A stretch of DNA of 29,427 bases from a virus. The notes beneath the pieces are model-generated. The model was not told the DNA's origin. It did no database searches and saw nothing but the letters and a program-made list of their open reading frames with translations. Positions 85 to 29,427 of the stretch are shown in pieces. Each line of letters starts with the position of its first letter. The first letter of the stretch is position 1. The translations under genes were made by a program, and so were the position numbers. The stretch is taken from the IMG/VR virus record IMGVR_UViG_3300020152_000051, positions 1 through 29,427 of that record; one strand, 5' to 3'.

Positions 85-561
85 ATGGGTGAGCGTGGGC
101 CTGCTGCAACTCCGACCGAGATTCTCGCCCAGCGCGGCAGCAAGCATGCCAAGGCACGCGTGCAGGCCGGCGAGCCGGTGGACCCCGTCGCGGCCCCCGA
201 GTGCCCGGCGTGGCTCAAGGGCGAGGCGCGGCAGGAGTGGTTCCGGGTTGTCCCGATCCTGCTCGCCCGACGCACGCTGTGCGAGGCGGACATGGGGCAC
301 CTGGCAGGGATGTGTGACTGGTGGGGGCAATACGTCAGCGCGCGCCGCAGGGTGCGCAAGATCACCAGCGCCAGCCCCTATCACGGGCATCTGATCGACC
401 ACCCGCGCGTGGTGATGTCCCAGGCATGGAAGGCGTATGCGGATGCTGCAAGGCAGTTCGGCCTGAGCCCGGCAAGCAAGACGCGAGTGAGAGCGGATGG
501 CAAGCCTGAATCAAACCCCAAGAGCCGATTCTTCAGCGGGCCTCGCCTTGCCTCTGGATGA
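85..561 (+). CDS. terS: Terminase small subunit, P27-like family
   Basis: A 158-aa protein that would recognise the packaging site on phage DNA and hand it to the large terminase. The N-terminus (GERGPAATPTEILAQRGSKH) has the basic, Pro-rich opening of P27-type small terminases. The middle is helical (a W-rhythm around WLKGEARQEWFRVVP) and the end carries the family-typical FGLSPASKTRV signature near residue 130. It sits directly upstream of terL and overlaps it by 65 nt, the standard gene order. No strong Shine-Dalgarno is visible before ATG 85, so the exact start is less certain than the identity. Function is inferred from family pattern and neighbour. Confidence 0.85.
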   Translation: MGERGPAATPTEILAQRGSKHAKARVQAGEPVDPVAAPECPAWLKGEARQEWFRVVPILLARRTLCEADMGHLAGMCDWWGQYVSARRRVRKITSASPYHGHLIDHPRVVMSQAWKAYADAARQFGLSPASKTRVRADGKPESNPKSRFFSGPRLASG

Positions 562-2236
562 GATCATCCGCCTGCTGCCTGGGTACGACCCGTACGCGCA
601 GGCCGGCGACTGCATATTCGATGGCGATGCAGCGCAGTTCGCGATCGACTTCATCGAGGAGTGCTGCAAGCTCGCCAAGGGGTCGGCGGCGCGCGAGGCC
701 GGCACGCCGTTTCTGCTGGAGCCCTGGCAGAAGGCCATCGTCGCCAACCTGTTCGGCTGGAAGCGACCGGACGGCACGCGGCGCTACCGCGAGTGCCTGA
801 TCTATGTAGCAAAGAAGAACGGCAAAACCGCACTGATTGCCGCGGTGATGCTGTACGTGATGTGCTGCGACCATGAGTACGGCGCGGAGTTGTACAGCGC
901 GGCCAGTTGCCGCGATCAAGCCGCGCTGCTGTTCTCGCACGCCGTGGGCATGGTGCGTCAGGAACCGTTTCTGGCCGATCTACTGACCGTCTACGGGGCC
1001 AAGGGTGGAAGCCAGCAGAAAGCCATTATCTGCGAGAAGTGGATGGCGGCCTACAAGTGCCTGTGCGCCGACGCCGACACCGGCGACGGCGTGAACCCGC
1101 ACTTCGCAGCGATTGATGAATTGCACCGCCATGCTAGTTCCGAACTGGCCGAGGTCTTACAGAAGTCCACCGCAGCCCGCAAGCAGCCGCTGGTGATCTA
1201 CACGACCACGGCCGACTACAATCGGCCCAGCCTGTGCAACACGATGGTCAAGCGTGCGAGGCAGGTGCGGGACAACAAGGGCGACCATGCTCAGCCAGGA
1301 TACGATCCGGCCTTTCTCCCGGCCGTGTACGAGGCCGACGCGAAGGACGACTGGAAAGCTCCGGCCACATGGCGCAAGGCCAACCCCAATCTTGGCGTGA
1401 CGGTCACGGAGGAGTTCCTGAGCCGCGAGTGCCTAAAGGCTCAGGAAATGCCAACAGAACTGAACAACTTCAAGCGCCTACACCTGAACATCGTGACGGA
1501 TGCCGATGAGGCGTGGATGCCTGCCGATCTGTGGAACCGATGCTCTGGCCTGTGCGACGGCGAGAAGCCGGAGCAGTGGCGGGCGCGGATGCTGGATAAA
1601 TTGAAGGGTCGGCCCTGCTATCTCGGTGGCGACCTGTCGGCCAAGATAGACCTGACCGCACTGGTGCAGATTTTCCCGCCGCTGGAAGAGCGGGGCAAGT
1701 GGATCATCATGCCCTGGTTCTGGATTCCCGAGGAGACCGCGAAGCGCAGGGAGGAGATCGACCGCGTGCCCTACCGCACCTGGGCGCGGCTGGGGTTTAT
1801 CGAGTTGTCCGAGGGCAACGAGGTGGACCAGCAGGCGATCCGCGAGAAGGTCAAGAGCCTCGATGCCGTGTACCCGATGAAGGAAATGGGGTACGACGAG
1901 TGGAACGCACTGAAGCTCAGCCAGGAACTGCGGTCGATTGACGGCTACGAGGACCGGATGGTGGTGGTGCGGCAGGGATCGCGAACCCTATCGGACCCGA
2001 TGAAGGAAGTGGAAGCGATGGTGGCCGGGAGCCGCATCGAGCACGGGGCCAACCCGGTGATGGACTGGATGATGGGCAACGTGATGGCGAAGCGAGATGC
2101 GAACGGGAACATCCAGCCAGACAAAGACAAGAGCGTCAACAAGATCGACGGTCCCGTGGCGCTGTTCACCGGCATGGCGCGGGCGCTGGTCGGCAACCAG
2201 ACCGACTCCGGCGACATCTACTTCAAGGCGATCTGA
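497..2236 (+). CDS. terL: Terminase large subunit (ATPase and nuclease)
   Basis: A 579-aa packaging motor that would pump DNA into the prohead and cut it. The ATPase half has an adenine-binding-type entry (LEPWQKAIV), a Walker A-like loop at residues 104-111 (VAKKNGKT) and a Walker B plus catalytic acid at 206-209 (IDEL, D207/E208). The nuclease half begins near LGGDLSAKIDLTAL, with D379 a likely metal ligand, and ends with an acidic IDGPVALFTGMARAL segment typical of Terminase_1/YmfN-like large subunits. Length is normal. The start overlaps terS; a later start would remove only the variable N-terminus. Third codon positions look less strictly G/C than in the portal and capsid genes, fitting a mosaic head module. 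Confidence 0.95.
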   Translation: MASLNQTPRADSSAGLALPLDEIIRLLPGYDPYAQAGDCIFDGDAAQFAIDFIEECCKLAKGSAAREAGTPFLLEPWQKAIVANLFGWKRPDGTRRYRECLIYVAKKNGKTALIAAVMLYVMCCDHEYGAELYSAASCRDQAALLFSHAVGMVRQEPFLADLLTVYGAKGGSQQKAIICEKWMAAYKCLCADADTGDGVNPHFAAIDELHRHASSELAEVLQKSTAARKQPLVIYTTTADYNRPSLCNTMVKRARQVRDNKGDHAQPGYDPAFLPAVYEADAKDDWKAPATWRKANPNLGVTVTEEFLSRECLKAQEMPTELNNFKRLHLNIVTDADEAWMPADLWNRCSGLCDGEKPEQWRARMLDKLKGRPCYLGGDLSAKIDLTALVQIFPPLEERGKWIIMPWFWIPEETAKRREEIDRVPYRTWARLGFIELSEGNEVDQQAIREKVKSLDAVYPMKEMGYDEWNALKLSQELRSIDGYEDRMVVVRQGSRTLSDPMKEVEAMVAGSRIEHGANPVMDWMMGNVMAKRDANGNIQPDKDKSVNKIDGPVALFTGMARALVGNQTDSGDIYFKAI

Positions 2237-2238
2237 CA

Positions 2239-3591
2239 ATGGGATTCCTCGCAAACCTCCTCCCCTGGCGGAAGCAGGCCGGCACGCCGAGCGCCTACCA
2301 CGGGGCGTCCTACGTCGCCGGCTACGGCAACGGGGCCAAGCCCCGCCCCTTCAACTACGACGCCGCCCTGCGGCAGTTCCGCCACTGGGCCTACGCCGCG
2401 GCGATGCTCAACGCCTCGGCGGTCGCCAACGTGCCCCTGCGGCTCTACGCCCGCAACCGCTCGACCACCCGCAAGCTCTACGCGACGCGGGCGCTGAAAA
2501 AGCACGAGGTCGCCCGCCTGCACGGCGCGGCGGGGGAGATGCCCAGCCTCGGGGCCTACCGCAAGGCCATCGAGTTCGGCGGCGACATCGTCGAGGTGGT
2601 CGAGCCGCACCCGGCGCTGGAGGTGCTGCGGAAGGTCAACCCCTGGCAGAACGGCTACGAGCTGACGCTGCTTCGGCTCTTTGACCTCCAGATCACCGGC
2701 AACTCCTACCTGCACGCGGTCTATGGCGGCCCGGTGCCCACCGAGGCGTGGCGGATGCCGCCGCAGCACGTCAGGATCATCCCCGACAAGACGCGGTTCA
2801 TCGCCGGCTACAGCTACGGGGCGAACACCGAGCTCGAGCGGACGTTCGCCGCCGATGAGGTGGACCACTTCCGCATCCCCAACCCCAGAGACCTCTACTA
2901 CGGGATGGGCTGGTTCGAGGCGGCATGGACGGCGATTGGTCTGCACGACTCGAAGCGGACGATGGATCTGGCGAAGTTCGACAACATGGCGAGGCCGGAC
3001 TACGTGGTCTCCGTCAAGCCCGGCGCGAACGTGAACAAACAGGCGCTCGATACGCTGGAAGAGAAGATCAACCAGCAGATCAAGGGCACCCGCAACAGCG
3101 GCAAGTTCCTCATGGTCGGTGCCGAGATCGACCTCAAGCAGCTCAACGAGAAGGTCGAGGAGATCGGCACCCCCAACCGCATCATCGAGGAGATCAGCGC
3201 CGTCTCGGGCGTGCCCGTGGCGATGCTGCTCAGCAACGACCCGAACCGGGCCAACTCCGTCACCGCCCGCGTGGGCTGGTACCGCTCGACGATCAAGCCC
3301 TACTGCAAGCTCGACGAAGAGAAGCTCAACGAGCGCTGGGTGCCGCGCTTTGAGGGCTCGGAGGACTACTTCCTCGCCTACGACCTCGTGAGCTTCGAGG
3401 ACCGCGAGGCGCTGGCCAAGCAGCTGGTCGGCTACGTCGCCGGCGGCATCCTGACCCCCAACGAGGCCCGCGCCGAAATCGACTACGCCCCGCGCGAGGG
3501 CGGCGACATGCTCTACCCGCCCTCGGGCACGACCGGCGGCGCGGCGGCGGTGGCAGGGGATCTTTCGCCAGACCAGAACACGGGAAGCTAA
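2239..3591 (+). CDS. Portal protein, HK97 family
   Basis: A 450-aa protein expected to form the dodecameric ring at the unique capsid vertex through which DNA passes. Family features seen: the early hydrophobic AAAMLNASAVANVPLRLYAR segment, the central LFDLQITGNSYLHAVYG block, the IPNPRDLYYGMGWFEAAW block, and the late SAVSGVPVAMLLSND motif followed by a C-terminal wing (GGILTPNEARAEIDYAP). It starts 2 nt after the terL stop. The last 27 residues (from LYPPSGTTGG) are repeated in diverged form downstream at 3827-3907, a sign of recombination at the gene's 3' end. Confidence 0.95.
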   Translation: MGFLANLLPWRKQAGTPSAYHGASYVAGYGNGAKPRPFNYDAALRQFRHWAYAAAMLNASAVANVPLRLYARNRSTTRKLYATRALKKHEVARLHGAAGEMPSLGAYRKAIEFGGDIVEVVEPHPALEVLRKVNPWQNGYELTLLRLFDLQITGNSYLHAVYGGPVPTEAWRMPPQHVRIIPDKTRFIAGYSYGANTELERTFAADEVDHFRIPNPRDLYYGMGWFEAAWTAIGLHDSKRTMDLAKFDNMARPDYVVSVKPGANVNKQALDTLEEKINQQIKGTRNSGKFLMVGAEIDLKQLNEKVEEIGTPNRIIEEISAVSGVPVAMLLSNDPNRANSVTARVGWYRSTIKPYCKLDEEKLNERWVPRFEGSEDYFLAYDLVSFEDREALAKQLVGYVAGGILTPNEARAEIDYAPREGGDMLYPPSGTTGGAAAVAGDLSPDQNTGS

Positions 3592-3911: not shown

Positions 3912-4115
3912 ATGGAATGGAAACCCGACACGCGGTTGCGTCCCGAACCCCTGGCCAGCCAGCAGGCGAGGCTCGGCCGCCACGAGGGGCTGGCGCAGTG
4001 GTGCTGCGACTGGCTCGGCTGGTGCGTTGACCGCTGCCTCTGGCGGCACTGGAAAGCCGTGAGCGGCGACGGCTGCACCTACTTCGCCCGCACGCTCGCG
4101 TGGCGCAAGCCGTGA
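3912..4115 (+). CDS. Small Trp/Cys-rich protein, unknown
   Basis: A 67-aa ORF that begins just after the duplicated portal end. Composition is unusual: seven Trp and five Cys, concentrated in the stretch LAQWCCDWLGWCVDRCLW, with a basic C-terminus. The aromatic segment could be a short amphipathic membrane- or protein-binding helix; no family is recognised. Its position mirrors the 52-aa ORF at 3595. GAGAG precedes ATG 3912 closely. Real expression is plausible but unproven. Confidence 0.45.
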   Translation: MEWKPDTRLRPEPLASQQARLGRHEGLAQWCCDWLGWCVDRCLWRHWKAVSGDGCTYFARTLAWRKP

Positions 4116-4147
4116 ACAGGAACACCGGAAACCAAGGACACCTCCCC

Positions 4148-4909
4148 ATGCTCACCAAGCGATTCTCCGCAGACATCGAAGTCGTTGACGGCGAGCGCGC
4201 CGTTGTCGCCCGCATCAGCACCGCCTCCCTTGACCGGGACAAGGAAGTGTTGCTGCCCTCAGGCATGGACGCGAAGGACTTCGAGAAGAACCCGACCGTG
4301 TTCTTCCAGCACGACTACTACCGCCTGCCGGTCGGCAAGTGCGTAGCACTGAAGCGTGATGGCGATGCCATCGTTGCAAAGACGGTCTTCGCTGAACGCC
4401 CGGCAACCCATCCGTCCAATCTGGAGTGGCTCCCCGACACCCTGCTCTCGCTCTACCAGCAGAAGGTGATGAACGCGTTTAGCGTCGGCTTCGAGCCGCG
4501 AGAGGTGCGGCAACCGACCAAGCGGGACATGGAGGCATTCGGCGAGGATTGCCAGCGCGTCTACTCGAAGTGGTCTATGTACGAATACAGCGCGGTAACT
4601 CTGCCAGCGAATCAGGACGCCGTGGCGATGGCGGTGAGCAAGAGCTTCAAGCAGTACGCCGAGTCGCTGGGCGTGACGCCGGAGCAGGCCCCGGAGCCCG
4701 AGCCGCAACCGGCGAAGGAGCAGGAGTCCGCCCCCGAGCCGCAGCAGAAGGCGGCCGAGCCCCAGCCCGAACCCGCCCCGGTCCTCGCCCCGCGCAAGGT
4801 GCTGTACGTGGTCGAAGCCGAGGCCAGCACCATCACCAGCGCCGACGCGGTCAAGGGCGAGGTGGCGGCGCAGGTCGCCAAGCGGTGCGGGCGCATCTAT
4901 GTGATCTAG
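4148..4909 (+). CDS. Prohead maturation protease, HK97 family (peptidase S78)
   Basis: A 253-aa serine protease that would cleave the capsid delta domain and itself during prohead maturation. The likely catalytic His is H55 in FFQHDY followed by PVGK, and the likely Ser is S112 in NAFSVGFEP, both in the expected family contexts. The catalytic domain covers about residues 1-170. It is followed by a Pro/Glu/Gln-rich linker (about 178-220) and a short ordered-looking tail (RKVLYVVEAEAST onward). ATG 4148 is chosen over the in-frame ATG at 4100 because the truncated homologue at 3774 begins at the equivalent Met. Codon choice differs somewhat from portal and capsid, consistent with allele replacement. 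Confidence 0.9.
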   Translation: MLTKRFSADIEVVDGERAVVARISTASLDRDKEVLLPSGMDAKDFEKNPTVFFQHDYYRLPVGKCVALKRDGDAIVAKTVFAERPATHPSNLEWLPDTLLSLYQQKVMNAFSVGFEPREVRQPTKRDMEAFGEDCQRVYSKWSMYEYSAVTLPANQDAVAMAVSKSFKQYAESLGVTPEQAPEPEPQPAKEQESAPEPQQKAAEPQPEPAPVLAPRKVLYVVEAEASTITSADAVKGEVAAQVAKRCGRIYVI

Positions 4910-5137: not shown

Positions 5138-6544
5138 ATGAAGCTGACGAAGAACGAGTTCGAGCTGATGCTCAACCATGCCAAGAGCCTCTCGGGCGAC
5201 GCCCGCAAGGCGATGATCGACTCCCTCCGCGCCGCGCAGGTGGTCGAGGTGGACGCCAATGGCGTCGAGACCCCCATCGAGATCCAGATCGCCGTCGTGG
5301 ACGGTGACGCCCAGAAGGCCGCCAGGCACGAGAACCTGACCGCCGAGCAGGTCAAGGCGATGGTGGACGAGGCGCTGGCCAAGAGCGGCCAGAATCAGCC
5401 CGCCCCCATCGGCCAGGTGCCCGAGAAGTTCCTCCTGCCCAAGCACGTCCGCCGGGTCGGCTCGCTCAAGGCGTTCGCCGGCAAGAGCGCCGACGGCACC
5501 GATCCCGAGGTCCGCGCGTACCGCTTCTACAAGTGGGCGATGGCCTGCCTCGGCAACGAGAGCGCGAAGGCGTTCTGCAACGAGCACGGGATCGGCCTGA
5601 AGGTCGCCAGCGAAGGGAGCAACTCGGCCGGCGGCTACCTCGTGCCCGAGGAGTTCGGCGGCGACCTGATTCAGCTGATGGAGAAGTACGGCGTCGCCCG
5701 CCAGCTCTTCAAGATCCGTCAGATGTCCAGCGATGTCCGCACCGACCCGCGGCGCGTCTCCGGCCTGACGGCCTACTTCACGGCCGAGAACGTGGCGGGC
5801 ACCGAGAGCCAGAAGGTCTGGGACACCGTGACCCTGACGGCGAAGAAGCTCACCGTCCTGTCGCGGATGAGCTCCGAGTTGAGCGAGGATGCCGCCATCA
5901 GCGTCGGCGACGACCTGATGATGGAGATCGCCCAGGCGTTCGCGCTCAAGGAAGACCAGTGCGGCTTTGCCGGCGACGGCAGCGCGACCTACGGCAGCAT
6001 CACCGGCCTTGGCCACAAGCTCATCGCCGTCAACGGCGTGGACGACGGCGGCGGGCTGGTGCTGGCGACCGGCAACGCCTTCGAGGAGTTCACGCTCCCG
6101 GACTTCAACAAGGTCGTCTCCCGCCTGCCGCAGTACGCCGACAACGGCAACACGAAGTGGGTCGCTCACCGCACCTTCTACTACGGCACGATGCAGCGGC
6201 TGGAACTGGCCGCCGGCGGCGTGACGGCGTTCGAGGTCCGCGAGGGCAACCGCACCCCGATGTTCCTGGGCTACGGCGTGGCGATCAGCCAGGTCATGCC
6301 CTCGGCCGACGCCAACAGCCAGGTCGCCTGCACGCTGGGCGACCACTCGGCCGCGGCGAGCTTCGGCGACCGTCGCCAGCCCACCATCGCCTTCAGCGCC
6401 GACGCCACCGTGGGTGGCGAGAGCGTGTTCGAGCGCGATCAGGTGGCCGTCCGCGGCACCGAGCGGATCGACATCAACGTCCACGACGTCGGCACGGCGA
6501 CCGCCGCCGGTCCCGTGGTGGGCCTGATCTCCAAGGCGTCCTAA
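5138..6544 (+). CDS. Major capsid protein, HK97 fold, with N-terminal delta domain
   Basis: A 468-aa capsid subunit. Residues 1 to about 140 form a charged, helical scaffold-like delta domain that the S78 protease would remove. The mature domain starts around EGSNSAGGYLVPEEFGG (about 159-173), the usual N-arm signature. Further family blocks are AYFTAENVAGTES, LTVLSRMSSELSED, MMEIAQAFALKEDQCGFAGDG and the C-terminal ADATVGGESVFERDQVAVR. It is isolated by hairpins on both sides, which may let it be expressed at a different level from its neighbours. Confidence 0.96.
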   Translation: MKLTKNEFELMLNHAKSLSGDARKAMIDSLRAAQVVEVDANGVETPIEIQIAVVDGDAQKAARHENLTAEQVKAMVDEALAKSGQNQPAPIGQVPEKFLLPKHVRRVGSLKAFAGKSADGTDPEVRAYRFYKWAMACLGNESAKAFCNEHGIGLKVASEGSNSAGGYLVPEEFGGDLIQLMEKYGVARQLFKIRQMSSDVRTDPRRVSGLTAYFTAENVAGTESQKVWDTVTLTAKKLTVLSRMSSELSEDAAISVGDDLMMEIAQAFALKEDQCGFAGDGSATYGSITGLGHKLIAVNGVDDGGGLVLATGNAFEEFTLPDFNKVVSRLPQYADNGNTKWVAHRTFYYGTMQRLELAAGGVTAFEVREGNRTPMFLGYGVAISQVMPSADANSQVACTLGDHSAAASFGDRRQPTIAFSADATVGGESVFERDQVAVRGTERIDINVHDVGTATAAGPVVGLISKAS

Positions 6545-7204: not shown

Positions 7205-8449
7205 ATGCTGAGACTGAACCTTGGCGCGGGAGGTTCCCCGCTGGATGGATACGTCAACGTTGACCGGAACTACGAGGAGCGCAGTGGGTCCAACAGCGAT
7301 GGCGTGAACCGGAAGGGCGAAGCGTACCCGCTCGGATACCACGCCGATTGCGCTGACGAAGTCCGCGCCTCGCATGTGCTGGAACACTTCTCGCATCGGG
7401 ACACCGCGAAGGTGATCGCCGAGTGGGTCCGCGTCCTGAAGCCCGGCGGCATCCTCAAGCTCGCCGTGCCCGACCTGAACAAGGTGCTGGCGCTGGCGGC
7501 GCAGGAGCCCGGCAGGTACCCCATCGAGGGCTACATCATGGGCGGGCATGTGGACGAGAACGACCGCCACGGCGCGGTGTTCACCGAGGCGAAGCTGCGG
7601 AAGCTGATGGAGGAGGCGGGGCTGGTGGACATCGGGCCGTGGACCAGCGAGACCAACGACTGCGCCGCCCTGCCGATCAGCCTGAACCTGATGGGGCGCA
7701 AGCCGGACGCCAAGCCCGAGCCCAAGCTGATGCCGGAGGGAACGCCGCTGGATGCCACGAAGACCGTGGCGACAACGCAGAACCTCAAGGTCGCCGCCAT
7801 CCTGAGTCGCCCGCGCTTCGGCCTCAACGACTTCTGGGACTGCGCGACCACCGCCCTGCGGCCCTTCAACATCCCGCTGCGGTCGTTCCGCGGCGTATTC
7901 TGGGGCCAGTGCATGCAGCGCGCTTTCAACGAGTGCTGCGAACAAGGCATCGACTGGATTCTCACGCTTGACTACGACAGCCTCTTCACCGCCCAGCACA
8001 TCTCGACGCTCTTCGACTGGCTAGGCAAACGGCCCGACATCGACGCCCTCGCCGCCCTGCAATGCCGCCGGGGGCAGCCGCACCCGCTGATGACGCAGGG
8101 GGCGAACACGCGGGTGGAACTCGACGGACAGCCGATCCTCGCCACCACCGCCCACTTCGGCCTGACCGTGCTGCGGGTGGAGGCGCTGAAGAAGTGCAAG
8201 AAGCCCTGGTTCTTCGGCCAGCCCGACAAGGATGGCGAGTGGGGCGACGAACGCCTCGATGACGACATCTGGTTCTGGCACCAGTGGCGTCTGGCGGGCA
8301 ACACCATCTACGTCGCCCCGGACTGCTCGATTGGGCACATGGAGGAGATGGTCGCGGAGTTCGACCCGGTGACGATGGAGGCCCGGCACGTCTACGTCCG
8401 CGAGTGGCGGGAGCGGCACGGGATGGACGCGAAGAAGGGAGGCAAGTGA
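7205..8449 (+). CDS. SAM methyltransferase-glycosyltransferase fusion, copy 1
   Basis: A 414-aa two-domain enzyme. Residues 1 to about 165 are a class I methyltransferase of the Methyltransf_11/COG4627 type: SAM-binding LNLGAGG (4-10), VNVD with the ribose-type acid D20, ASHVLEHF (55-62) and EWVRVLKPGGILKLAVPD (73-90). After a charged linker, residues about 195-400 look like a GT-A glycosyltransferase: ILTLDYDS with D256-x-D258, a late DDDIWFW block at 352-358, and H378 in a GH motif as in metal-dependent family members. ATG 7205 is chosen for the AAGGAGACAGA site just upstream. The substrate is unknown. It lies among head-connector genes and has a paralogue at 9550, so virion protein or DNA decoration is plausible. 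Confidence 0.8.
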   Translation: MLRLNLGAGGSPLDGYVNVDRNYEERSGSNSDGVNRKGEAYPLGYHADCADEVRASHVLEHFSHRDTAKVIAEWVRVLKPGGILKLAVPDLNKVLALAAQEPGRYPIEGYIMGGHVDENDRHGAVFTEAKLRKLMEEAGLVDIGPWTSETNDCAALPISLNLMGRKPDAKPEPKLMPEGTPLDATKTVATTQNLKVAAILSRPRFGLNDFWDCATTALRPFNIPLRSFRGVFWGQCMQRAFNECCEQGIDWILTLDYDSLFTAQHISTLFDWLGKRPDIDALAALQCRRGQPHPLMTQGANTRVELDGQPILATTAHFGLTVLRVEALKKCKKPWFFGQPDKDGEWGDERLDDDIWFWHQWRLAGNTIYVAPDCSIGHMEEMVAEFDPVTMEARHVYVREWRERHGMDAKKGGK

Positions 8450-8754
8450 TGGGGAGCAAGCAACCATCCCCTCGGCCGCCGAGGATGCCGCAGTGGTCGT
8501 TCTCGTCCCCGCGACCACCGAAGCCCGGAGAGACAGCGGATGATTACTGCCGTGCGTGCGATTGCGTTCGCGTCGGCGATTCCGTTTATCCGCGCAGGTA
8601 TCTGGAGTCGGCGCGCAAACAGGCGGCCAAGCGGCAACCGCCACTGCCAACTCCGAACGAGATCATCAAGCGTGGCGGGGCGACATGGTATGAGTTTGCG
8701 ATGGCACTACTTGTCATCGCGCTGCTGTTCGCCGTCTACGCTGTTGCACAGTGA
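8449..8754 (+). CDS. Small protein with C-terminal membrane helix
   Basis: A 101-aa protein whose ATG overlaps the stop of the MT-GT gene, with GGGAGG upstream. The first 60 residues are Pro/Arg-rich and contain a CRACDCVR cluster. The last 20 residues (YEFAMALLVIALLFAVYAVA) form one clear transmembrane helix. Tight translational coupling suggests it works with the fusion enzyme or simply travels with it; the membrane anchor is unusual in a head-connector cassette. No family recognised. Confidence 0.6.
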   Translation: MGSKQPSPRPPRMPQWSFSSPRPPKPGETADDYCRACDCVRVGDSVYPRRYLESARKQAAKRQPPLPTPNEIIKRGGATWYEFAMALLVIALLFAVYAVAQ

Positions 8755-8765
8755 GGAGACAACCG

Positions 8766-8933
8766 ATGCGACTAGAACTACTCAAGCCCTACGGCATGAG
8801 CGCCAAGGGCGACGTGCTGCCGGACGTGCCCAAGAGCGTGGCCGATGAGCTGATCAAGCGCGGGATCGCCAAGGCGATGGACCCCGCACAGGTCAGCACC
8901 AAGCCGTTCGCGAAGCGCCTTCGCCGCAAGTAG
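8766..8933 (+). CDS. Small conserved-type phage protein (RLELLKPYG)
   Basis: A 55-aa protein. MRLELLKPYGMSAKGDVLPD followed by VPKSVADELIKRGIAK has the layout of small phage head-region proteins: a short beta segment with KPYG, a GD(V/I)L turn, then an Ala/Leu helix ending in KRGIAK. These are commonly found next to head-tail connector genes. ATG 8766 is favoured over an in-frame GTG at 8751 because GAGGAG lies 5-10 nt upstream of it. Exact function unknown. Confidence 0.65.
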   Translation: MRLELLKPYGMSAKGDVLPDVPKSVADELIKRGIAKAMDPAQVSTKPFAKRLRRK

Positions 8934-8946
8934 CAGGTGACACCCC

Positions 8947-9513
8947 ATGCCCATCACCGTCCTCACCCCTCCCGCCGCCGAACCCGTCGCGCTGGCCCTC
9001 GCGAAGCAGCATTTGCGGGTGGACCACGACGACGATGACGCCATGATCGCCGCCATCATCGCGGCGGCCCGAGCGTACTGCGAGCGGTTCTGCCGCCGCA
9101 CCTTCCCGACCGCCACGCTGCGGCTGACGCTGGACCGCTTCCCGGCGGGAGGCGGCGCGATCCGCCTGCCCTACCCGCCGCTGGTGAGCGTGTCGAGCCT
9201 CACCTACGTGGACGGCTCGGGGGTGACGCAGACCCTGGCCGCCTCCGCGTACAGCGTGGATGCCGCCAGCGCGCCGGGGCGGGTCGTGCCCGCCTACGGG
9301 ACCGTGTGGCCCGCCACGCGCGGGCACGTCAACGATGTCGCGGTCACCTACGTGGCCGGGTCGGCCGCCACGCCCCCGGCGGTGGTGCAGGCGATGCTGC
9401 TCTTGATCGGCCACTGGTACGAGCACCGCGAGGGGGTCGTGACCGGGACGATCAGCACAACGCTGGACCTGGCGGTGGACAGCCTGCTCTGGTCCGAGCG
9501 CAGCGAGGTGTAG
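8947..9513 (+). CDS. Head-tail connector, gp6-like/phiE125 gp8 family
   Basis: A 188-aa adaptor expected to bind the portal ring and extend the neck. Family signs: the helical opening LALAKQHLRVDHDDDDAMIAA, the AARAYCERFCRR segment, a middle beta domain (LPYPPLVSVSSLTYVDGSG) and the closing helix VVQAMLLLIGHWYEHREGV. Length is typical for the phiE125 gp8 branch. It lies between the two MT-GT fusion genes, so the second fusion gene separates it from the head-closure gene it would normally abut. Confidence 0.88.
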   Translation: MPITVLTPPAAEPVALALAKQHLRVDHDDDDAMIAAIIAAARAYCERFCRRTFPTATLRLTLDRFPAGGGAIRLPYPPLVSVSSLTYVDGSGVTQTLAASAYSVDAASAPGRVVPAYGTVWPATRGHVNDVAVTYVAGSAATPPAVVQAMLLLIGHWYEHREGVVTGTISTTLDLAVDSLLWSERSEV

Positions 9514-9549
9514 GGAGCACGCCGGAACAACGTGGAGCAACAGGAGCGC

Positions 9550-10710
9550 ATGGAGCAGATCAAGTTGAACCTCGGCGGCGGCGCAACGCCTCTGCCTGGA
9601 TACGTGAATGTGGACCGCCAGAGCGGCGGCGAGGCGTACCCGCTGGCCTACCCGGACAACCACGCCGACGAGCTCTACGCGAGCCACATCCTGGAGCACT
9701 TCGGCCACCGCGAAACGCTGGCGGTGCTCCAGGAGTGGGTGCGGGTGCTCAAGCCCGGCGGGGTGCTCAAGGTTGCGGTCCCCAACTTCGCGGCCATCGT
9801 GGACGGCTACCGCGCCGGGGCCGACCTCCCGGTGCAGCAGTACCTGATGGGCGGGCACGTTGGCGAAAACGACCGCCACGGCAGCGTGTTCGATGAGTCG
9901 TTGCTGCGGGCGTTGCTGACCCACGCGGGGCTGATCGAGGTCGAGCCGTGGGAGAGCGGCAACGGCGACTGCGCCGCCCTGCCGATCAGCCTGAACCTGC
10001 AAGGGCGCAAGCCGGTGGCGAGGAAGCTCCGCGTGGCCTGCGCCATGAGCGTGCCGCGGCTGGGGTTTCAGGACAACTTCTTCACCTGGGCCGAAGCCCT
10101 GACGCCGCTGGGGATCGTTCCCACCGCCTACGCCGGGGCGTTCTGGGGCCAGTGCCTGGAACGGGTACTCGCCGAGCAGGTTGCCAGCGGCCAATACGAC
10201 TACATCCTGACGGTGGACTACGACACCTTTTTTACGCGGCAGACCGTCGCGCAGCTGCTGGCGAGCGTGGCGACCCACCCGGAGATTGACGCGCTGGCCC
10301 CCATCCAACTCAAGCGAGGCGATCACGTGCCGATGCTCAGCCTGCATGATGCGCAGGGCCGCCCGCAGACGGAGGTGGACCGCTCGGCGATGGCCAGGGC
10401 GCTGCTGAAGGTGGACAGCGCCCACTTCGGCTGCACGCTGCTGAAGGTGGACGCCCTGCGGGATCTGCCGCACCCCTGGTTCAAGGGCGTTCCTGCCGAC
10501 GATGGCACCTGGGGCCAAGGACACATTGACGACGACATCTGGTTCTGGCGGCAGTGGGCCAAGGCGGGCAACACGCTCTACAGCGCCAACCGCGTCGTGG
10601 TCGGCCACGGCGAGTACGTGGTGACCTGGCCGGACCGCCAGTGCGGCACCCTCTACCAGGGCACCAGCGAGTTCCGCCGGCGCGGCCTGCCCGCCGGAGT
10701 CTGGGAGTAG
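9550..10710 (+). CDS. SAM methyltransferase-glycosyltransferase fusion, copy 2
   Basis: A 386-aa paralogue of the gene at 7205 with the same domain order. The methyltransferase part has KLNLGGGATPLPGYVNVD (5-22), ASHILEHF (44-51) and EWVRVLKPGGVLKVAVPN (62-79). The glycosyltransferase part has ILTVDYDT (D223-x-D225), a late DDDIWFW block and a GHGEY motif. The inter-domain linker is about 25 residues shorter than in copy 1. Both copies share the blocks YLMGGHV-ENDRHG and DCAALPISLNL, so they arose by duplication, but they are well diverged. ATG 9550 matches the N-terminus of copy 1 (AGGAG 9542-9546, short spacing); GTG 9532 is an alternative. Confidence 0.8.
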   Translation: MEQIKLNLGGGATPLPGYVNVDRQSGGEAYPLAYPDNHADELYASHILEHFGHRETLAVLQEWVRVLKPGGVLKVAVPNFAAIVDGYRAGADLPVQQYLMGGHVGENDRHGSVFDESLLRALLTHAGLIEVEPWESGNGDCAALPISLNLQGRKPVARKLRVACAMSVPRLGFQDNFFTWAEALTPLGIVPTAYAGAFWGQCLERVLAEQVASGQYDYILTVDYDTFFTRQTVAQLLASVATHPEIDALAPIQLKRGDHVPMLSLHDAQGRPQTEVDRSAMARALLKVDSAHFGCTLLKVDALRDLPHPWFKGVPADDGTWGQGHIDDDIWFWRQWAKAGNTLYSANRVVVGHGEYVVTWPDRQCGTLYQGTSEFRRRGLPAGVWE

Positions 10711-10716
10711 CACCCC

Positions 10717-11034
10717 ATGCAGATCGGAAAACTGCGGCACCGCATCGAGATCGAGCGCTGTACCGAAACGCCGGACGCCACCGGGCACCCGGTGAAGGCG
10801 TGGGCGAACTTCGCCAGCGTCTGGGCCGAGGTGCTGCCGCTGGCCGGGCGGGAACTGACCAGCGCCAAGCAGATCGACGCACAGGCGACCCATCAGGTGA
10901 ACATCCGCCACTGCGCCGGGGTCACGCAGGCCATGCGGGTCAAGCACGGCACGCGGTACTTCTCCATCAACCATGTCTCCGACGTGGAGGGGCGCGGCCG
11001 CGAGATGCAACTGCTCTGCACGGAGGCGCTGTAA
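10717..11034 (+). CDS. Head closure / head-tail adaptor protein (PF05521-like)
   Basis: A 105-aa protein. It opens with MQIGKLRHRIEIER and continues with WAEVLPLAGRELTSAKQ and VKHGTRYFSINHVSD, matching the compact beta-barrel head-tail adaptors related to SPP1 gp16, which plug the connector after packaging. It starts 6 nt after the second fusion gene and is followed 3 nt later by the gp10-like gene. Confidence 0.88.
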   Translation: MQIGKLRHRIEIERCTETPDATGHPVKAWANFASVWAEVLPLAGRELTSAKQIDAQATHQVNIRHCAGVTQAMRVKHGTRYFSINHVSDVEGRGREMQLLCTEAL

Positions 11035-11037
11035 GCC

Positions 11038-11661
11038 GTGGCCGACGTGACCGTCAGCGTGGCCCTGGAAGGTGCCGCCGCCCTGCGGGAGATGCTGGGG
11101 CGGCTGGACGCCAAGGTCGCCAAGCAGATCCTCCGCACCGCCCAGCGCGAGGCGGCAGCACTGGTCCGCGATCAGGCGCAGAAGAACTCTCCGGTTCGCA
11201 CCGGCAAGCTGCGCCGCGAGATCAAGGTCCGCGTGGCCAGCCGCATGCGCAAGGGCGAGGTGGGCTTTGTGGTCACCAGCGGCTCCGGCAAGACCGACTT
11301 CAGCGGCGAGGCGTACTACGGGGCGTTTCAGGAATGGGGCTGGAGGACTGGCGCGCGGAAGAAGACATCGAAAGCCGTGCAGAACCGCATCTTCCGCCAG
11401 TTGATGCGCGAGGCCAGGGCGGCCCGCGCGCAAGGGGAGGGGCGCGGATTGGCCAAGCGCGGCACCGAGTTCCGCCAGCGCCAGGAGCAGTTTTTCCGCC
11501 AGGAAGCGGTGCGGCGCGCCTCGAACCTGCCGCAGCAGAAACGCCGCCAGGTTCCCGCCCGCCCCTTCATGCGCCCGGCCTTCGACGCCAAGGTCGGCGA
11601 GGCGGTGGACCTGATCGCCCGGCGCATCCGCGAAGGCGTGGACGCAGTCACCCTACGGTAA
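11038..11661 (+). CDS. HK97 gp10-like tail completion protein with internal insertion
   Basis: A 207-aa protein starting at GTG 11038. The N-terminal helix (AAALREMLGRLDAKVAKQIL), SPVRTGKLRREI and YYGAFQEWG, together with the C-terminal ARPFMRPAFDAKVGEAVDLI, are the classic gp10 family blocks. Between about residues 107 and 170 there is an extra basic, Arg/Gln-rich segment (RQRQEQFFRQEAVRRAS), making it longer than usual members. The family acts at the head-tail joining stage. Confidence 0.85.
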   Translation: MADVTVSVALEGAAALREMLGRLDAKVAKQILRTAQREAAALVRDQAQKNSPVRTGKLRREIKVRVASRMRKGEVGFVVTSGSGKTDFSGEAYYGAFQEWGWRTGARKKTSKAVQNRIFRQLMREARAARAQGEGRGLAKRGTEFRQRQEQFFRQEAVRRASNLPQQKRRQVPARPFMRPAFDAKVGEAVDLIARRIREGVDAVTLR

Positions 11662-11667
11662 AAACCC

Positions 11668-12105
11668 ATGGCCCAGATCCGCGATTGCCTGCGGCAGCAC
11701 CTCTTGAGCAGTCCCACCATCGCCGGGCTGGTCGGCCAGCGCGCCTACCCCGACGTGGCGGTCGGGGACGCCCTGCCGCTGCTGGTGCTGACCCTGATCA
11801 GCGACACCAGCACCGACAGCGCAGATGGGGCCACCGGGTTGCAGACCGCCCGCGTCGAGGTGCTGGCCAAGGCGAGCAGCCCGGCGGGCCGCGATGCGCT
11901 GGCCGAGGCGATCCGCAACCGCGCCTCGGGCTACCGCGGGAACATGGGAAGCGCGTCCACCGGAACCCTGTTCGTGCAGAACTGCGAATGGGACAACCGC
12001 GCCGACGACGTGGAAGAGTCACCAGAGCTGGAGCCGCGGCAGCGCTACCTCGCGGCGATTGACCTGATCCTCAGCTATGAGGCCGGTGCCCCCACCGGGA
12101 ACTAG
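11668..12105 (+). CDS. Tail completion/terminator protein, DUF3168-like
   Basis: A 145-aa protein with the DUF3168 layout: an N-terminal helix IRDCLRQHLLSSPTIAGLVG, RAYPDVAVGDALPLLVLTLI, a middle strand ARVEVLAKASSPAGRDALAE (a helix follows) and a late strand YLAAIDLILSYE. Members cap the tail tube and allow it to join the head. Its position between gp10 and the tail tube gene supports the call. Confidence 0.82.
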   Translation: MAQIRDCLRQHLLSSPTIAGLVGQRAYPDVAVGDALPLLVLTLISDTSTDSADGATGLQTARVEVLAKASSPAGRDALAEAIRNRASGYRGNMGSASTGTLFVQNCEWDNRADDVEESPELEPRQRYLAAIDLILSYEAGAPTGN

Positions 12106-12123: not shown

Positions 12124-12558
12124 ATGGCCGAGACCACTGGCTACAAGGGCAAGGGCGTGACGCTGGGCTACGCGGTCGGCACCGCCACCTCGTACACCAC
12201 CATCGCGCAGATCCGCGACGTGCGCGGCCCGAACATCGACGTGACCGACATCAACATCAGCAACGCCGACAGCCCCGGCGACTGGATGGAGTACCTGCCG
12301 GGCATGAAGGACGGCGGCGAGATCACCTTCGACGTGGTCTACAAGCCCGCCACCGGCACGACCATCCACGGCCTGGTGGCGCAGACCGGCAACACCTGGC
12401 AGGTCACCCTGCCCGACAACGGCACGGCCACCGGCAGCACGATCCGCTGCGGCGGCTACCTCAAGAGCCTGGGCAATGACGTGCCCTACAACGACGCGAT
12501 CACAAACAGCGCCACGATCAAGGTCAGCGGCGGGGTGACGTTCACCGCGCACGCCTGA
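12124..12558 (+). CDS. Major tail tube protein
   Basis: A 144-aa protein expected to form the stacked hexameric rings of the tail tube. It shows GKGVTLGYAVGTATSYTTIA, the IRDVRGPNIDVTDINISNAD block, MKDGGEITFDVVYKP and a C-terminal strand pair, the pattern of lambda V/TTP-like tube proteins. AAGGAGAACTGCT gives a strong ribosome site. Its single-domain length indicates no Ig-like C-terminal extension. Confidence 0.88.
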   Translation: MAETTGYKGKGVTLGYAVGTATSYTTIAQIRDVRGPNIDVTDINISNADSPGDWMEYLPGMKDGGEITFDVVYKPATGTTIHGLVAQTGNTWQVTLPDNGTATGSTIRCGGYLKSLGNDVPYNDAITNSATIKVSGGVTFTAHA

Positions 12559-21452: not shown

Positions 21453-22635
21453 CGTGCTGACCGCCGCCCGGCAGCGGGTGGCGTGGGTGTTCGACACCTT
21501 CCCGCGCCTCTATGTCAGCTTCTCGGGCGGCAAGGATTCCACGGTGCTGCTGCATCTGGTGATGGAGGAGGCGATCCGGCGGCAGCGGCGGGTGGGCGTG
21601 CTGTTCGTGGACTGGGAGTGCCAGTTCACGCTGACCATCCGGCATGTGCGGGCGATGTACGATCTCTACCGCGAGCACGTTGAGCCCTACTGGGTCGCCC
21701 TGCCGATGCGGACATGGAACGGGTGCAGCCAGCACGAGCCGGAGTGGATCGCATGGGACTCCGCCAGGCGGCCCCTGTGGGTGCGGCAGCCGGACCCGAT
21801 GAGCATCACCGATCCCGCCGCCCTGCCCTGCTACCGGCCGAACATGATGTTCGAGGAGTTCATGCCGGCGTTCGGGCAGTGGTACAGCCGGGGCCAGCTC
21901 ACCGCCAGCCTCGTGGGCATCCGCACGCAGGAGAGCCTCAACCGCTTCCGCTCCGCGGCGGTGATGGACAAGACGACCTTTGCGGGTCGGCGCTGGACGA
22001 CGTGGCTGGGCGGCTCGGCGTGGAGCGTCTACCCCATCTACGACTGGACCGCCGAGGATGACTGGACCTACAGCGGCCGGTTCGGCAAGCCCTACAACCC
22101 GCTCTACGACCGGATGCACCAGGCGGGGTTGACGGTGAACCAGATGCGGATCGACGAGCCGTTCGGCGACACCCAGCGCAGGGGGCTCTGGCTCTACCAG
22201 ATCATCGAGCCGGAGATGTGGGCGAAGATGGTGGCGCGGGTGGCCGGGTGCAACACCGGAGCCCTGTACGCCGAGGAGAAGGGCAACGTGCTGGGCAACG
22301 GCGAGATCACGCTGCCGCCGGGGCACAGCTGGCAGAGCTTCGCCAACCTGCTTTTGCACACCATGCCGCCCACGACCGCCGACCACTACCGCAACAAGCT
22401 CGCGGTCTACCTGCGCTGGTACGCGGTGCGCGGCTACGGCGCGGGAATCCCTGATTGCCTCGATGGCGACCTGGGGGCAAAGGACATGCCAAGCTGGCGG
22501 CGGATCTGCAAGGTGCTATTACGCAATGATTACTGGTGCAAGGGGCTGTGTTTCAGCCCAACCAAGTCGCATGCCTACGAAAAGTACAAACAGGTGATGA
22601 AGAATCGCCGCAAGCGCTGGGGGATCTACGCATGA
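21418..22635 (+). CDS. PAPS-reductase-fold protein, DUF3440/IbrA-like
   Basis: A 405-aa protein of the adenine nucleotide alpha hydrolase fold. The PP-loop SGGKDST is at residues 36-42, followed by LFVDWECQFTLTIRHV and the LVGIRTQESLNRFRSA block, as in IbrA/DUF3440. The C-terminal region has ADHYRNKLAVYLRWYAVRGY and the Cys-bearing WCKGLCFSPTKS. Members bind ATP or an adenylylated sulfur donor by fold, but their real reaction is unsettled; they almost always pair with an IbrB ParB-fold protein, as here with a 4-nt overlap. ATG 21418 has GAGGAG upstream. Nucleic-acid modification or regulation is the usual hypothesis. Confidence 0.88.
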   Translation: MSSSLKKSLGIDVLTAARQRVAWVFDTFPRLYVSFSGGKDSTVLLHLVMEEAIRRQRRVGVLFVDWECQFTLTIRHVRAMYDLYREHVEPYWVALPMRTWNGCSQHEPEWIAWDSARRPLWVRQPDPMSITDPAALPCYRPNMMFEEFMPAFGQWYSRGQLTASLVGIRTQESLNRFRSAAVMDKTTFAGRRWTTWLGGSAWSVYPIYDWTAEDDWTYSGRFGKPYNPLYDRMHQAGLTVNQMRIDEPFGDTQRRGLWLYQIIEPEMWAKMVARVAGCNTGALYAEEKGNVLGNGEITLPPGHSWQSFANLLLHTMPPTTADHYRNKLAVYLRWYAVRGYGAGIPDCLDGDLGAKDMPSWRRICKVLLRNDYWCKGLCFSPTKSHAYEKYKQVMKNRRKRWGIYA

Positions 22636-23288
22636 GCAATCTGTTTCGCAATGGTATTGTGGAGAGGATCGTGGCGGCCATCGCCGAATTGGAGCACCTG
22701 CCCGAGTCGGATCGCGTCGAGGCCATCAACACCATCAAACAGGCCCTCCATGCGGTGAGCCCGATGCGGAGCGAGCCGGTGGACTGCGTGCTCTGGGTGC
22801 CGGCCGAAGAGGTGCATGCCAACGACTACAACCCCAACAGCGTGGCCCCGCCGGAGATGAAGCTGTTGCAGATCAGCATCGCCGAGGACGGCTACACCCA
22901 GCCCATCGTGACGATGCTCGACGGGGAGGGCCGCGAGGTGGTGGACGGATTCCACCGCAACCGCGTCGGCAAGGAGTGCCAGGACGTGAGGCAGCGGGTC
23001 AGGGGGCTCCTGCCGGTGGTGACGATCAACGCCGGCCGCACCGACAAGGCCGACCGCATCGCCGCGACGATCCGGCACAATCGGGCGCGGGGCAAGCACA
23101 CGGTGTCGGCGATGAGCGAGATCGTGGTGGAACTGAAGCGGCGGAACTGGTCGGACGCGAAGATCGGCCGCGAACTGGGCATGGAGCCCGACGAGGTGCT
23201 GCGGCTCTCGCAGATCAGCGGCCTGGCGGAGATGTTCGCCGACCGGGAGTTTTCACAGGCGTGGGAGGCGGACGATGGCAACCAGTGA
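22632..23288 (+). CDS. ParB/sulfiredoxin-fold protein, IbrB-like
   Basis: A 218-aa protein overlapping the IbrA-like gene (ATGA). The ParB-like domain covers about residues 50-150: WVPAEEVHANDYNPNSVAPP, SIAEDGYTQPIV, EVVDGFHRNRVG (the ParB GxHR-like box) and ATIRHNRARGKH. An HTH-like helix pair follows (WSDAKIGRELGMEPDEVLRL). A short helical N-terminus precedes the domain. By analogy with IbrAB the two form a functional pair, possibly with DNA-binding targeting by this subunit; this is inference. Confidence 0.85.
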   Translation: MSNLFRNGIVERIVAAIAELEHLPESDRVEAINTIKQALHAVSPMRSEPVDCVLWVPAEEVHANDYNPNSVAPPEMKLLQISIAEDGYTQPIVTMLDGEGREVVDGFHRNRVGKECQDVRQRVRGLLPVVTINAGRTDKADRIAATIRHNRARGKHTVSAMSEIVVELKRRNWSDAKIGRELGMEPDEVLRLSQISGLAEMFADREFSQAWEADDGNQ

Positions 23289-28708: not shown

Positions 28709-28914
28709 CCCTTACCGACCGTGTCGCCCGTGAGCGGACCATCGCGGGCAGGGGTGTGCCCCGCACCGGACGAAGCCTTCCTCCGGTGTGACGACCGTGG
28801 CGGCCGTGTGAATCAGCACGACCGCCGCCTTGGGGCTGGCGACGGTGCCAGCGATGCGCGAGCGGCCCGCTGCTGATGGCAAAGTGGCGGCGGGTCTTAG
28901 GAAAGGAGCGAACG
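28709..28914 (+). other. Hairpin-rich leader before the repeat-protein gene
   Basis: No ORF is supported. CACCGGA/TCCGGTG (from about 28772) and a GGCGG-C-CGTG stem with CACG-A-CCGCC (about 28809-28835) are clear hairpins. The segment ends in AAAGGAGCGAACG before ATG 28915. It may be a long structured leader. Confidence 0.4.
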
Positions 28915-29427
28915 ATGGCGAGCAAGCGTCAGACGGTACTGGTGTTGCGGACATGCAGTCAGGACATGACCAGCCGCAACAACTTTCGGTGGCCGAAGCG
29001 CGGCAGAGTCGAGGCGACGGACTGGCGCGATGACTACCGCTGCGGTGGCGGTCTGCACGGGCTGCTCTGGGGCGTCGGCGACGGCGAGTATCTCGACTGG
29101 TCCGCCGATGCGAAGTGGCTGGTAGTGGCGGTTGACCAGCGCGATCTGCGCACCGGGCAGGGCGAGCTGACGGACAAGTGCAAGTTCTGCTGCGGCACGG
29201 TGGTGTACTGCGGGGATCGCATTGGCGCAACGAGCTACCTGCTGAGGCACGGCGCGGCAGGTATGGCGGTGGTCGGGTGCATTTCTGCGGCAGGCGACTT
29301 TGGCACCGCCACCGCAGGCGACCGGGGCACCGCCACCGCAGGCCACGGGGGCACCGCCACCGCAGGCCACTGGGGCACCGCCACCGCAGGCGACGGGGGC
29401 ACCGCCACCGCAGGCCACTGGGGCACC
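28915..29427 (+). CDS. Phage protein with WP/CG-GLHG N-domain and octapeptide repeats (partial)
   Basis: At least 171 aa, running off the window. The N-terminal domain (about 1-125) shows NNFRWPKRGRVEATDW, CGGGLHGLLWGVGDGEYLDW, KWLVVAVDQ and GTVVYCGDRIGATSYLLRHG, a layout I associate with widespread small phage proteins of unknown role. From about residue 127 it becomes a tandem repeat of G-(D/H)-x-G-TATA, like repetitive beta-solenoid or ice-nucleation-type repeats. AAAGGAG precedes the ATG. It may be a large surface or DNA-mimic-like solenoid; function unknown. Confidence 0.75.
   Translation, partial: MASKRQTVLVLRTCSQDMTSRNNFRWPKRGRVEATDWRDDYRCGGGLHGLLWGVGDGEYLDWSADAKWLVVAVDQRDLRTGQGELTDKCKFCCGTVVYCGDRIGATSYLLRHGAAGMAVVGCISAAGDFGTATAGDRGTATAGHGGTATAGHWGTATAGDGGTATAGHWGT
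29293..29427 (+). repeat. 24-bp tandem repeat encoding 8-residue units
   Basis: Five full units begin at 29293, 29317, 29341, 29365 and 29389, and a sixth is cut by the window end. The consensus is GG(C)(G/C)AC-N3-GGCACCGCCACCGCA, with variation only in the codons giving D/H and F/R/G/W. It encodes G-D/H-x-G-T-A-T-A. Copy number could vary by replication slippage. Confidence 0.95.

Follow-up and report, generated by a model that had tools for sequence, protein, structure and literature searches.

We analyzed a 29,427-base fragment of viral DNA, IMG/VR virus record IMGVR_UViG_3300020152_000051, called the window here at its full length. Profile scans with Pfam and PHROGs showed that an HK97-type head-tail module occupies its first 13 kb. 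Two genes of this module code for proteins, denoted P1 and P2, in which a putative S-adenosylmethionine (SAM)-dependent methyltransferase is fused to a putative glycosyltransferase (GT) of the GT-A fold. The P1 gene lies between a phrog_5707-like gene and the connector gene, and the P2 gene lies between the connector and head closure genes. A preliminary description of the sequence had placed both open reading frames (ORFs) among head and connector genes, which the profile scans bear out. The ORFs are present at the positions that it gave, and their ATG codons at 7205 and 9550 are each preceded by an AAGGAG/AGGAG-like ribosome site.

P1 and P2 are 45% identical over 391 columns, nearly their whole length (BLASTP, E=2e-112), with the methyltransferase preceding the GT-A domain in both, consistent with the shared two-domain design and clear divergence noted earlier. 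AlphaFold models were computed from family alignments. The P2 model had a predicted local distance difference test (pLDDT) score of 93.6 and a predicted template modeling (pTM) score of 0.88, and the P1 model had a pLDDT of 89.9 and a pTM of 0.62, with a low-confidence linker at residues 181-191. In Foldseek searches, the best Protein Data Bank (PDB) match of P2 was A197 of Sulfolobus turreted icosahedral virus (STIV) (2c0n; E=3.8e-9, target template modeling score 0.73), and many SAM-methyltransferases, including 1vlm and 3e23, ranked below it. The best matches of P1 were the human collagen galactosyltransferase COLGALT1 (9evj; 4.9e-8) and STIV A197 (7e-8), and SAM-bound 3e23 was also matched (E=1.6e-6). 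Structure prediction, which had been named as a check on the two-domain design, thus recovered the GT-A and SAM-methyltransferase folds in both proteins, and P1 and P2 are modeled as a SAM-methyltransferase fold joined to a GT-A fold. A sequence search of the PDB found no relatives of P1 and only chance-level matches for P2.

P1 and P2 scored 29.7 and 29.2 bits with Methyltransf_11 (PF08241), against a gathering score of 21.2 bits; with Glyco_trans_2_3 (PF13632) they scored 12.8 and 15.9 bits, under the gathering score of 27 bits. The DxD, DDD and GH blocks of the preliminary description proved to be real. D256, D258, D352, D354, G377 and H378 (P1 numbering) are invariant in a 44-row alignment, and the corresponding positions of P2 do not vary across 39 rows. 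Judged from the sequences, the invariant DxD, xED-like acid and C-terminal His are what is expected of a metal-dependent GT-A enzyme.

Table 1. Features of the head-tail module, with the domains and motifs of P1 and P2.
Feature	Position	Strand	Evidence or remark
Terminase	497-2236		Head-tail module
Portal	2239-3591		Head-tail module
Protease	4100-4909		Head-tail module
HK97-type major capsid protein	5138-6544	+	Phage_capsid 1.2e-33
Probable head-decoration protein (phrog_5707-like), ~145 aa	6632-7066	+	Candidate acceptor; PHROG function unassigned
P1 methyltransferase-GT fusion, 414 aa	7205-8449	+
P1 SAM-methyltransferase domain (Methyltransf_11 type)	7205-7705	+	Residues 1-167; Pfam above cut-off, Foldseek 3e23
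Probable gene-conversion tract, P1 half	7559-7705	+	Codon identity with P2; ends at domain boundary
P1 GT-A domain	7787-8446	+	Residues 195-414; Foldseek and invariant columns; GT clade A
P1 GT-A motifs	DxD 7970-7978, DDD 8258-8266, GH 8333-8338
Orphan small ORF	8449-8754	+	Single hydrophobic segment at the C-terminus; not proven to be coding
DUF7210-like small protein	8751-8933	+	Relatives in 103 loci; Pfam 0.0056, below cut-off
Head-tail connector (Ad1-like)	8947-9513	+	Phage_connect_1 9.2e-11; phrog_442/40
P2 methyltransferase-GT fusion, 386 aa	9550-10710	+
P2 SAM-methyltransferase domain	9550-10014	+	Residues 1-155; Pfam above cut-off, Foldseek 1vlm, 3e23
Probable gene-conversion tract, P2 half	9868-10014	+	Codon identity with P1
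P2 GT-A domain	10024-10707	+	Foldseek STIV A197; GT clade B
P2 GT-A motifs	DxD 10216-10224, DDD 10528-10536, GH 10603-10608
Head closure Hc1	10717-11034	+	phrog_25 1.8e-26
Neck	11038-11661		Head-tail module
Tail terminator	11668-12105		Head-tail module
Major tail protein	12124-12558		Head-tail module

Scans of IMG/VR identified 138 encoding stretches with P1 and 363 with P2, the two sets partly overlapping. In 50,697 phage records, we found only remote, partial and weak matches, to the methyltransferase only or to the GT only. By sequence comparison, the family appears essentially absent from cultured phages and widespread in uncultured ones. Its position is conserved: the nearest labeled upstream gene was phrog_5707-like for 145 of the 152 family GT ORFs having one, and the nearest labeled downstream gene was DUF7210 or the connector for 153/160; unlabeled genes may intervene between these neighbors and the GT. 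The statement that modifying enzymes are not standard at this place is thus wrong for the lineage, and the mycobacteriophages of cluster O provide a published precedent (PMC4351075). The open-access literature was searched specifically for this decoration-connector slot, with most subscription papers outside the reach of the search, and no description of it was found.

The capsid-seeded scan, which is independent of the GT, showed a GT in 12 of 16 loci. The connector-seeded scan reached more distant phages, mostly devoid of both the GT and the phrog_5707-like gene. When loci with capsid and connector from these two scans were pooled, 10 had the GT and the phrog_5707-like gene, 6 the phrog_5707-like gene only, 41 neither, and none the GT alone; this association is confounded by common descent. 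A different gene precedes the connector in two loci without GT (L209:4985-5809 and L257:3547-4308), and it is weakly MptE-like in L257.

The enzymes joined to the GT vary among relatives. The 180 GT ORFs comprised 150 Methyltransf_11-GT, 13 Methyltransf_9-GT, 3 FkbM-Methyltransf_11-GT and 2 FkbM-GT fusions and 12 GTs alone, counts of methyltransferase-GT types that are biased because the loci were gathered by similarity to these genes. Separate FkbM-like genes were found in 59 loci, Pfam support for FkbM being often weak (6 of 30 mixed neighbor ORFs scanned), and separate Methyltransf_9 genes in 7 loci. In L139 and L140, one protein with two methyltransferase domains is followed by a separate GT. 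Sulfotransferase genes occupy the slot in three loci (L259:6866-7555, L251:7655-8395 and L009:6414-7055), and the virion glycans of some relatives may be sulfated. The slot of L247 (7929-9092) holds a cytidylyltransferase-like gene matching heptose-1-phosphate adenylyltransferase, which suggests that a phage with such a gene supplies its own activated sugar, and L104 carries a similar gene. The enzyme types of the slot are those of glycan synthesis and capping. Relatives exchange the methyltransferase but retain the GT at its place, and we infer from this that the GT product is the substrate of the methyltransferase.

We then considered the origin of the two copies, which had been called paralogous. 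The GT tree places P1 in clade A (26 rows), apart from P2 in clade B; the split has 100/100 support, and the grouping of their GT halves as sisters was rejected (approximately unbiased test, p=6e-87). A simple duplication of P1 into P2 is thus ruled out for the GT halves. The methyltransferase tree joins P1 and P2 as sisters (99/74) within a group that includes the copy of L083 (99/95). The two copies are thus not each other's nearest relatives over their full length, and to call them paralogous, if a local duplication is meant, is wrong for their GT halves. Over P1 residues 119-167 (49 codons), P1 and P2 have 32 residues in common, of which 31 are encoded by identical codons; codon usage would predict 18 (best-window p 0.0002-0.002). 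The DNA of this region is 77% identical over 175 nt. These codon patterns suggest gene conversion, the methyltransferase half of P1 having probably been copied from, or homogenized with, that of P2. In the nearest relative, L010, the GT at the P1 place is 83% identical and lacks a methyltransferase, and the gene at the P2 place encodes a full fusion; a scan seeded with the L010 GT revealed no further close relative. The P2 position is also occupied in L259. The pattern is explained most simply if a clade A GT acquired its methyltransferase half from a resident clade B gene or had it homogenized by that gene. As the GT halves belong to two old clades, P1 and P2 probably differ in donor or acceptor.

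We consider it rather probable that P1 and P2 act in the cytoplasm as bifunctional enzymes of a virion-glycosylation cassette, glycosylating a virion protein and capping the glycan by O-methylation. The GT-A half would use a divalent metal, bound through the DxD motif, to move a sugar from a host nucleoside diphosphate-sugar onto a virion surface protein in the cytoplasm during assembly. The methyltransferase half would then O-methylate, and so cap, that sugar. The likeliest acceptor would be the decoration-like protein encoded directly upstream, the phrog_5707-like protein being favored by its neighborhood only, and otherwise the capsid, whose C-termini contain 20% serine plus threonine vs 14% overall, a hint only. 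Masking of the particle or altered adsorption might be the biological gain. A linked O-methylated sugar on a virion protein had been put forward in the preliminary description, and the structure models, the conserved position and the interchangeable tailoring enzymes lend it support.

Several observations weigh against this reading. The GT half scores under all curated GT cut-offs tried. The loci were gathered by similarity to P1 or P2, and many contigs are near-duplicates. In the capsid-seeded loci L252 and L254, the phrog_5707-like gene is present and no GT was matched by hidden Markov models, so that the GT is not obligatory. As for the origin of the P1 methyltransferase, the sister grouping has 99/74 support only, and its placement with the clade A methyltransferases was not rejected (p=0.18). 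A Ser/Thr-rich C-terminus marking the decoration-like protein as acceptor was ruled out, as its last 20 residues contain 19% serine plus threonine vs 21% overall. Lastly, catalysis, the O-methylation of a sugar, the donor, acceptor and product of P1 and P2, and the biological gain are what we infer.

It may be instead that P1 and P2 modify a host envelope or secreted glycan in infection, for superinfection exclusion or receptor masking, and leave the virion alone. Phage GTs are known to alter host surface glycans (PMC12619734), and it is general knowledge that sulfotransferases, FkbM proteins and heptose nucleotidyltransferases also occur in cell-surface glycan loci. However, the genes are inside the head cassette and adjoin the decoration-like gene in most relatives. 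Unlike Gtr-type systems, which are membrane-bound, P1 and P2 have no evident membrane segment or signal peptide in their sequences and models, and we regard a host-envelope target as unlikely. Glycosylation and methylation of hypermodified phage DNA is highly improbable in our judgment, although DNA-modifying viral glycosyltransferases are known (Pyle et al. 2024, cited in PMC12619734): the genes are in a late structural cassette, the closest structural relatives act on proteins or glycans, and no DNA-hypermodification gene was recognized among the window proteins scanned, which cover part of the genome and part of its ORFs.

The two halves might also act independently on one structural protein, the methyltransferase methylating a side chain or terminus of the acceptor directly. 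The fusion anatomy would be the same in this case, and Methyltransf_11 members are generally known to act on many substrates. Nevertheless, the replacement of the methyltransferase by FkbM-like or Methyltransf_9 proteins and the co-occurrence of sulfotransferases better fit the capping of a glycan, making direct protein methylation a doubtful explanation.

The small ORF at 8449-8754 had been described as a membrane-anchored protein coupled to the first fusion. It does overlap the P1 stop codon, and it has a hydrophobic C-terminal helix resembling a tail anchor (hydropathy 2.4). However, a search for its relatives found none, and its third-codon G+C is 0.69 vs 0.83-0.96 in its neighbors; for these two reasons its coding status is unproven. 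The ORF could be of recent origin or no gene at all and, having no relatives, was discarded as a conserved part of the cassette. Elsewhere in the window, beyond the tail genes, a ParB-like partition/nuclease protein is encoded at 22536-23288 (phrog_2159, 2.1e-70). A 24-nt tandem repeat in about six copies (GGCACCGCCACCGCAGGC...) is found at 29274-29417, in an open-ended ORF (28876-29427) that matches phrog_18079 (function unassigned; 2.8e-47).

In a scan of a species-genome collection, GT matches were found only in two Phycisphaerae metagenome-assembled genomes, i.e., in 2 of 397 Phycisphaerae genomes and in 1/343 in the phylum sample. As the two short contigs that carry the GT also carry phage head modules, these matches are a hint from binning and not proof of the host. 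A planctomycete host is plausible.

Taken more broadly, the phages of a large uncultured lineage, whose hosts are possibly planctomycetes, might use a fixed decoration-connector slot as an exchangeable glycan-tailoring island. One GT-A family, combined with methyl-, sulfo- and sugar-activating enzymes that can replace one another, would diversify the virion sugar coat, and domain conversion between resident copies would reshuffle it. We advance this scenario tentatively, as possible rather than probable. To our knowledge, virion glycosylation of tailed phages has been documented experimentally mainly in mycobacteriophages; a similar logic, in fused form, is present in hundreds of environmental contigs and in almost no cultured phage. 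If the proposal is true, virion glycan capping is a common phage trait, the fusions offer compact two-step enzymes for glycoengineering, and the question arises of an environmental selection for variable virion sugars.

Among known systems, STIV A197 is likewise a virus-encoded GT-A protein; among solved structures it matched P2 best and was one of the top matches of P1. This essential GT is believed to act on the capsid protein of STIV by glycosylating it (PMC10551542), but it belongs to an archaeal virus, has no methyltransferase and is 12-13% identical to P1 and P2. The podovirus MW202524 has a methyltransferase/'has synthase'/methyltransferase triad whose GT shows homology in a profile comparison (hhalign 97%, E=2e-11) and is flanked by methyltransferase genes, one of them matching weakly. 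In contrast with P1 and P2, these are three separate genes of an unrelated phage type, with remote similarity (26-28% identity). PHROG 1574, of unassigned function, matches the GT half (P2, 7.7e-5; L108, 6.7e-10) but covers the GT part only. In the cluster O mycobacteriophage Corndog, the O-methyltransferase gp35 and the glycosyltransferases gp36-gp38 are encoded among head genes (PMC4351075), and virion glycosylation and a weaker antibody response are reported for those mycobacteriophages, as summarized in PMC11600133 and PMC12363180. By published description, the window resembles Corndog in that methyltransferase and GT genes are found within the head cassette of both. Whereas the Corndog genes are separate and lie in the portal-protease interval, those of the P1/P2 lineage are fused and lie between the decoration-like and connector genes.

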